A stretch of DNA of 64,000 nucleotides from assembly GCF_024195295.1 (NCBI RefSeq), contig NZ_JAMFTH010000001.1, positions 124,001 to 188,000 of the forward strand, in the 5' to 3' direction. The notes beneath the pieces are model-generated. The model saw nothing but the letters and a program-made list of their open reading frames with translations. It ran no database searches and was not told where the DNA came from. Shown here one piece after another: positions 34,900 through 51,725 of the stretch (position 1 is its first letter; every line of letters starts with the position of its first letter). This stretch comes from Gilvimarinus xylanilyticus. GTDB lineage: Bacteria > Pseudomonadota > Gammaproteobacteria > Pseudomonadales > Cellvibrionaceae. The translations under genes and the position numbers were made by a program.

Positions 34900-34919
34900 T
34901 TGCGGTCTAATACTAAGAA

Positions 34920-34981
34920 GTGAGGACGACCTCACCTCTCTTACACTATCGTTTGGGGACGGCCCCTGATATTGAGAGGTG
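34920..34981 (+). promoter_or_regulatory. Guanidine-II (mini-ykkC) riboswitch
   Basis: Two small hairpins with ACGR tetraloops, the defining form of this class: GTGAGG-ACGA-CCTCAC (34920-34935) and GGGG-ACGG-CCCC (34955-34966). The Shine-Dalgarno segment GAGAGGTG (34974-34981) is fully complementary to CACCTCTC (34933-34940), whose first bases are part of the first hairpin. Ligand-stabilised hairpin 1 would therefore release the ribosome site, giving guanidinium-dependent translation of the exporter starting at 34985. The pairing is read directly; ligand identity follows from the known class and the downstream gene. Confidence 0.92.
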
Positions 34982-34984
34982 TGT

Positions 34985-35302
34985 ATGAGTTGGTTTATTT
35001 TAATTATCGCTGGTTTGTTTGAGATTGGCTGGGCCATTGGTCTTAAGTATACCGATGGCTTCACTAAGCTTTGGCCCACCGTGGGTACAGTGTTGTCTTT
35101 GGTGATCAGCTTTCTCTTGCTGGGTTTGGCGGTCAAAATTTTACCCGTGGGGACGGCTTACGCCATCTGGGTGGGCATTGGCGCCGTAGGTACAGCGGTA
35201 CTGGGCATTGTATTGTTCGGCGAGTCAACGGATGTGCTTAAACTGGTGAGCTTAGGTTTGATTGGTGCCGGAATTGTCGGTCTAAAACTGGCTCACGGCT
35301 AG
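34985..35302 (+). CDS. sugE: SMR family guanidinium exporter (SugE/Gdx type)
   Basis: Four-helix dual-topology exporter of 105 residues. The N-terminus M-S-W-F-I-L-I-I-A-G-L-F-E-I-G-W-A-I-G-L-K-Y has the essential Glu14-equivalent and the Gdx-type W/K-Y pattern rather than the EmrE one; the last helix ends 'GLKLAHG'. ATG 34985 lies 3-4 bases after GAGAGGTG. The guanidine-II riboswitch in front and the protein subtype agree on guanidinium/proton antiport. A terminator follows. Confidence 0.93.
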   Translation: MSWFILIIAGLFEIGWAIGLKYTDGFTKLWPTVGTVLSLVISFLLLGLAVKILPVGTAYAIWVGIGAVGTAVLGIVLFGESTDVLKLVSLGLIGAGIVGLKLAHG

Positions 35303-35334: not shown

Positions 35335-35364
35335 AAAAGCGAGTCCCTGTGGCTCGCTTTTTTT
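35335..35364 (+). terminator. Rho-independent terminator of sugE; rest of the 322-base spacer empty
   Basis: AGCGAG...CTCGCT stem, with a further CC/GG pair beyond a bulged T, followed by about eight Ts and preceded by As, so it may also work in reverse. The remaining sequence up to 35624 contains no supported gene. Confidence 0.8.
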
Positions 35365-35624
35365 ATGCCTCGGGGAAACGATTGCGTCCCCTGAGCGCTG
35401 TTGGTACTCTCTAATCAAAGGTTCCTTAGGCGATAGAGGTGCCCTAAATCTGTTTACTGGTCGCTTGTAAAAATGCGCGAACGGAGGTGGGGCCTTGATA
35501 TTTAATAGCCTGTTAAGGGAACGCATGAACTTTGGGCTCGTTCATGCGCTGCGCATTAATCCGATAATTTTGATTGTGGGATTAACAAGGACCCTTCGAT
35601 AATAACAACAGAGCGTTTACGCTT

Positions 35625-48440: not shown

Positions 48441-48630
48441 TTTTTATATGCCCGGGTCGCCGGGCGTTGCGAGGTACTTTTGGTCTTGGCCAAAAGTACC
48501 CAAAAGCCGCGCCCCAACATCTGGCCCTTCGGGTCCCCTCATTCCAATCGATTTTAGCGGGCCGTATCGATAGGCCGTCCGTGGCCTAGCGATACTTGCG
48601 CAAACCTCCTGTTTGCTTACCCCCTAAAAT
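48441..48630 (+). repeat. ~190-bp dispersed repeat, left copy (inverted partner at 51541-51725)
   Basis: Begins TATGCCCGGGTCGCCGGGCG and ends with CCTCCTGTTTGCTTACCCCC. It contains a self-complementary core (GGTACTTTT-GGTCTTGG-CCAAAAGTACC, 48473-48500). The reverse complement of 51541-51725 matches it over nearly the entire length with scattered substitutions. Similar blocks recur between genes in related genomes as far as I recall. It is non-coding. Confidence 0.85.
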
Positions 48631-51540: not shown

Positions 51541-51725
51541 TTTTGGGGGTAAGCAAACAGGAGGTTTGCGCAAGTATCGTCAGGCCAGGGAGGGCCTGTC
51601 GATACGGCCCCCTAAAATTGGCTGGAGGGAGGGCACCCCGGAGGGGCCAGTTGTTGGGCGAGGTTTTTGGTTACTTTTTGCCGAAAAAGTAACTCGCAAC
51701 GCCCGGCGACACGGGCATATTAAAA
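51541..51725 (-). repeat. ~185-bp dispersed repeat, right copy (inverse of 48441-48630)
   Basis: Reads GGGGGTAAGCAAACAGGAGG on the plus strand at its left end and GCCCGGCGACACGGGCATAT at its right end, the mirror of the left copy. The internal hairpin (GGTTACTTTTTG...AAAAAGTAAC, around 51669-51694) is conserved in position with compensating changes. With the left copy it brackets the AT-rich island. The 425-base gap 51351-51775 holds only this repeat plus a small CTTTTGC/GCAAAAG hairpin near 51400. Confidence 0.85.

Follow-up and report, generated by a model that had tools for sequence, protein, structure and literature searches.

The sugE gene in the window, by which we mean the whole 64-kb stretch of DNA that was analysed, is probably controlled by a translational ON guanidine-II riboswitch, in which the linker between two hairpins masks the ribosome site and guanidine-induced kissing of the hairpins frees it. 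The aptamer, the gene, the complementarity of linker and ribosome site and the recurrence of this complementarity in relatives were established in this analysis; ligand binding, kissing and the translational effect in this organism are expected by analogy with published members of the class. Without guanidinium, the linker start CTCTC would pair with the ribosome site to form a helix, and up to 3 nt of the 3' arm of hairpin P1 could join this mask by branch migration, while a competing ACAC/GUGU pairing further along the linker would offer an alternative mask. Once guanidinium occupied the ACGA and ACGG loops, P1 and P2 would join as kissing hairpins and, because the linker must then span both kissed stems, its pairing with the ribosome site would be lost, GAGAGG would be freed and SugE would be made.

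The aptamer and the sugE gene

The initial annotation had named a guanidine-II riboswitch and proposed an Rfam search for the Guanidine-II (mini-ykkC) model. This search gave a gathering-level match: RF01068 aligned over its full model (1-48) with positions 34918-34967 of the plus strand at 41.9 bits against a gathering threshold of 32 (E 5.7e-05), which bears out the identity, and it was the sole gathering-level Rfam match in the window. The two ACGR-loop hairpins that had been described before a SugE/Gdx gene are likewise present, as judged from the RF01068 alignment and the letters themselves. Hairpin P1 (34920-34935, plus strand; 6 bp) consists of the 5' arm GTGAGG (34920-34925), the loop ACGA (34926-34929), which we take to be the guanidinium-binding loop of the guanidine-II class, and the 3' arm CCTCAC (34930-34935). 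Hairpin P2 (34955-34966, plus strand; 4 bp) consists of the arms GGGG (34955-34958) and CCCC (34963-34966) around the loop ACGG (34959-34962). The linker between them (34936-34954, plus strand) has 19 nt and falls within the range of 7-40 nt given for the class in PMC7544219.

The gene that follows, sugE/gdx (34985-35302, plus strand), would encode an SMR-family guanidinium exporter of 105 aa, as indicated by its frame, a match to the profile NF008512 (134.5 bits over 126) and an SMR domain (PF00893). Its start ATG lies at 34985-34987, and an in-frame GTG at 34979 would yield 107 aa. The aptamer thus precedes a guanidine exporter gene (SugE, NF008512), as in the class, and 34918-34967 appears to be an ordinary guanidine-II riboswitch in front of such a gene. 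The gene upstream of the riboswitch is purL, by its domains. No convincing promoter was seen in the interval between purL and P1, the consensus scan listing none in the 20 nt before P1, and we infer that sugE is transcribed by read-through from purL. After sugE, the fold and alignments revealed a terminator-like hairpin with a T run (35335-35370, plus strand), which resembles the hairpin after purL in congeners; the consensus scan listed no terminator at 35335-35370.

The weak additional Rfam matches in the window, at 48559-48622 (minus strand) and 51546-51611 (plus strand), were rejected; they reached 42.5 and 40.1 bits with RF01731 (TwoAYGGAY) against a cut-off of 43 and are instead copies of a dispersed structured repeat, the core of which had 0 occurrences in the reversed control and 17 in the genome, at up to 3 mismatches.

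Complementarity of linker and ribosome site in the window and in relatives

The ribosome site GAGAGGTG (34974-34981, plus strand), placed by its complementarity and by GAGAGG 5 nt before the ATG, is fully complementary to CACCTCTC (34933-34940, plus strand), which comprises 3 nt of the P1 3' arm and 5 nt of the linker. These 8 Watson-Crick pairs agree with the initial annotation, which had reported perfect complementarity of the ribosome site to a stretch that includes the 3' arm of hairpin 1. At least 8 pairs were reached in 572 of 20000 dinucleotide shuffles of the upstream piece (2.9%), while 8 pairs were reached in 249 of 20000 mononucleotide shuffles; the plus strand of the window offers 21310 places with the same geometry, of which 60 reach 8 pairs. 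The whole leader is not unusually stable (z -1.25; 19 of 200 shuffles fold as well). Taken alone, the complementarity is mildly unusual and provides weak to moderate evidence; therefore, the case for masking rests on the relatives.

At the level of the genus, RF01068 was matched (E ≤0.001) in 7 of 8 genomes; for the family the figure was 65 of 144, for the order 102 of 390, for the class 27 of 369 and for the phylum 84 of 398, these genome sets overlapping and the larger searches having stricter filters. A fixed pattern applied to 350 sources (349 loci and the window; 231 RF01068 loci and at least 119 pattern loci, a sample) retained 172 distinct exporter leaders, once duplicates, chance matches to the pattern and leaders with another gene or start context had been removed. 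The P1 arm CCYCAC was present in 108 of them. GAGAG stood at the ribosome site in 14 of the 17 leaders whose linker begins with CTCT vs. 12 of the 155 others (Fisher 4e-11, descent ignored); the latter comprised 4 of 30 leaders with CGCTC linkers, 8 of 61 other CCYCAC leaders and 0 of 64 leaders with another P1. One base outward of CTCTC/GAGAG, 10 of 14 leaders formed a pair (A-T, G-C or T-A; permutation P 0.028), and the next three outward positions showed no significant excess of pairing (P 0.73, 0.51 and 0.14). At the covarying position, the window has T opposite T.

Permutation of linkers and ribosome sites pointed in the same direction for CTCT and CGCTC leaders taken together, where 0 of 5000 permutations were as good as the observed combination (56 of 5000 after thinning to 23 leaders). 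For CTCT alone the numbers were 10 of 5000 and, after thinning to 7, 94 of 5000; for CGCTC alone they were 106 of 5000 and, after thinning to 16, 1290 of 5000, at which significance was lost. No own-pair signal was found in the Pseudomonas-type GACGC linkers (2543 of 5000 permutations as good) or in the remaining linkers (3928 of 5000). The CTCT/GAGAG counts and the combined permutations lend comparative support to the masking complementarity that had been read from the window alone, and a pairing able to hide the ribosome site is real and found in relatives too.

Across the class, when 10 nt of linker were taken together with the final 4 nt of the P1 arm, 0 of 2000 permutations were as good for 158 exporter-labelled leaders and 9 of 2000 for 48 carboxylase-labelled ones, a split that is unreliable because the labels come from frame length and many frames are cut by short flanks. 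In these two sets, permutations were as good in 597 and 1583 of 2000 cases for pairing of the 5' flank and in 1988 and 1315 of 2000 for the coding-region control. Class-wide pairing of linker and ribosome site therefore seems to lie only slightly above permutation and is a weak signal. A single masking architecture for the whole class was also considered and rejected, as the best-helix classes of 221 distinct leaders (of the 231 loci, 6 had no motif by the rule used and 1 had no start) showed none. The Pseudomonas sugE leaders (L237, L239, L252, L256 and others) have the same P1 and a GACGC...GCGTGA linker, which, read by eye, could perhaps pair with the P1 3' arm and represent a different expression platform.

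Hairpin P1 and the proposed masking of the ribosome site

The initial annotation had also described masking of the ribosome site as mutually exclusive with ligand binding at hairpin 1. Three of the 8 pairs do take P1 bases (34933-34935 only), but a 5-pair mask that spares P1 is equally stable. In the energy evaluation of the window leader, P1, P2 and 5 linker pairs came to -19.6 kcal/mol and the 8-pair helix, combined with P2 and what remains of P1 (3 pairs), to -18.9 kcal/mol, so a mask that could not coexist with P1 is not what these energies describe; P1 and P2 without a mask gave -15.4 kcal/mol. In addition, the best helix leaves P1 whole in 30 of 30 CGCTC relatives, and exclusion by sequence alone is unsupported. 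Because P1-sparing folds occur in both the window and its relatives, masking would not require P1 to open; the first 5 nt of the linker, CTCTC, appear to be the main anti-ribosome-site element, the wording "mutually exclusive" is overstated, and the overlap with P1 may tune masking. Exclusion more probably arises, as published, from P1-P2 kissing that stretches the linker.

The predicted minimum-energy fold (-25.5 kcal/mol) contains P1 and P2 and pairs the linker bases UACACU (34942-34947, plus strand) with 34978-34983 and 34936-34938 with 34987-34989. This alternative mask, a prediction only, speaks against our preferred reading insofar as it covers the ribosome site with other linker bases. 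The ensemble energy was -27.14 kcal/mol when free and -26.77 with P1 and P2 locked; forcing the 8 pairs while permitting any others gave -25.74. The predicted exposure of the ribosome site hardly altered when only P1 and P2 were locked, but when the linker was kept single-stranded, which roughly imitates P1-P2 kissing, the predicted exposure of 34974, 34975, 34978 and 34979 rose from 0.14-0.19 (P1 and P2 locked) to 0.59-0.75. Positions 34976-34977 were predicted to be open in every state but the forced 8-pair one.

Overlap with P1 in the relatives was compared in 17 CTCT, 30 CGCTC, 22 GACGC and 31 remaining leaders, 8 of the 108 being left out for a P1 of less than 5 bp, and mean overlap energies in the CGCTC and GACGC groups were disregarded because some overlap states had impossible values, with hairpins unable to close. 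In the CTCT leaders, a 2-base overlap was lowest in 11 of 17, by 0.5-0.7 kcal/mol, a one-base overlap tied in 2 and overlap was worse in 4; in the CGCTC leaders it was lowest in 0 of 30, and P1-sparing helices reached up to 12 pairs (L336). TG followed AGG in 9 of the 16 CTCT leaders having AGG vs. 8 of 81 others, an excess of AGGTG that fits either P1 overlap or better pairing with 16S. These results bear on a rival scenario of strand exchange, in which formation of the 8-pair helix would open P1, so that P1 could not coexist with the mask and would itself be the point of decision. Such a scenario would account for 8 perfect pairs of which 3 lie within the P1 arm, and forcing them costs the ensemble only 1.4 kcal/mol, but the P1-sparing fold is just as stable; the overlap that gives most CTCT leaders their best helix gains only 0.5-0.7 kcal/mol and is absent from the CGCTC relatives, and the AGGTG that would extend it also improves the match to the 16S tail. 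We therefore consider strand exchange unlikely. It is more improbable still that the complementarity is incidental and that sugE is controlled otherwise (e.g., by P2 directly shielding the ribosome site) or the switch is defunct, for although shuffles do reach 8 pairs and the class-wide signal is slight and absent in some linker groups, the CTCT/GAGAG association and the varied long linker helices of relatives argue against it.

Masking of the ribosome site by the linker has precedents. Anti-SD elements in the linker or P0, kissing hairpins and translational ON control are described in seven reports (PMC7544219, PMC9094411, PMC9561414, PMC9300104, PMC5486947, PMC7266159 and PMC13064478), so this way of working has already been proposed and partly tested for the class; the mechanism of the initial annotation is the published one with its border moved into P1, and the idea is not new. 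PMC5486947 states that a 14-nt linker must stretch 49 A once the hairpins kiss and that folding of the riboswitch and formation of a putative stem over the ribosome site would rule each other out. For the Pseudomonas aeruginosa riboswitch, a model is credited to Reiss and Strobel 2017, and RelE cleavage was used to test it in PMC9561414; this riboswitch resembles the window in its two ACGR hairpins before an SMR exporter and is translational ON with the SD sequestered without ligand, as we propose here, and its anti-SD mutants are constitutively ON, with ribosome loading near maximum at all ligand levels (PMC9561414). However, the P0 mask proposed there is built from bases of the linker and of the 5' flank (those changed were C7, C8, C32 and C34), whereas in the window the beginning of the linker and the last bases of the P1 arm would form the mask. 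The Escherichia coli sugE/gdx riboswitch shares the gene, two hairpins, an anti-SD in the linker and the loops ACGA/ACGG, according to PMC9300104, PMC9094411 and PMC13064478, but its linker has 13 nt instead of 19 nt and its stems differ.

The window also resembles the sugE leaders of Alishewanella (L246), Psychrosphaera (L312), Reinekea (L327), Paraglaciecola (L279), Haliea (L338), Candidatus Nitrotoga (L265) and Aestuariicella (L263), which have its P1, a linker start CTCTC or CTCTT and a GAGAG ribosome site, with SugE proteins 74-88% identical to its own. They differ from it in the remaining linker and the flanks, and the helix is extended outward by at least one pair in 5 of these 7 leaders (none in L265 and L338). 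The window provides a further natural guanidine-II switch with a readable expression platform, and its relatives, in which the platform varies while the aptamer is near fixed, form a series for relating masking strength or P1 overlap to response.

Probable insertion and possible mobility of the riboswitch-sugE unit

The SugE of the window is 73-89% identical to 11 of the 16 other CTCT-leader SugEs (those among the best 25 matches) and up to 84% identical to SugEs with CGCTC leaders (e.g., L276), but 56-64% identical to six SugEs of congeners, whose leaders differ. In the FastTree phylogeny, 14 of the 17 CTCT proteins, including that of the window, fell within a 21-leaf clade (support 0.88) and all 17 within a 38-leaf clade (support 0.68), both without congeners. 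In 7 of 7 congeners, purL is followed by a terminator-like hairpin and no sugE was found within 1.5 kb downstream of purL; six of the 7 carry a less similar sugE with a different leader elsewhere. In the window, riboswitch and sugE lie between the purL stop and a hairpin similar to that of the congeners (similarity good for L353, moderate for L352, L354, L355 and L358, poor for L356 and L357). The unit from 34900 to about 35306 was thus likely inserted between the purL stop codon and the terminator-like hairpin.

A close relative of the unit in Alishewanella aestuarii B11 (L246, 2-1520) adjoins an integron integrase (TIGR02249, 362.7 bits over 265) and occupies the first cassette-like position beside it; GTTAGGC precedes its P1, and an attC-like stretch follows the unit. 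L309 has similar flanks and also shows an attC-like end; both attC-like ends were called from the attC motif. GTTARRY occurred within 26 nt before P1 in 6 of the 172 leaders, and among their loci, most of which are short, only L246 had a TIGR02249 match. An integron integrase (390.7 bits over 265) is also encoded in the genome of the window, on a different contig. Since no attC-type site was seen by eye, from its motif, after the window sugE, an integron cassette origin of this copy is only possible. Among 72,556 plasmid records, similar DNA appeared as only 1 match, which was weak and partial. PMC7695847 already presents a joint map of integrons, guanidine riboswitches and SMR genes.

Rather tentatively, these units might represent a guanidine-II/sugE module that is mobile and in some hosts takes the form of an integron cassette. 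Its P1 would be constant, and the linker next to it would change fast and be matched anew to the ribosome site; where this match extends into P1, as in some members, branch migration between P1 and the ribosome site would tune the set point. The control, being translational, would work wherever the module has landed, here next to purL without a clear promoter of its own. The likely insertion beside purL, together with close kin in an integron, illustrates how control at the level of translation could let a gene stay regulated after arriving at a new location.

The genome of the window also contains a second guanidine-II copy (L002, 1501-1546), which lies after two DUF1989 proteins and before a biotin-carboxylase-domain protein and has a linker and ribosome site different from those of the window.
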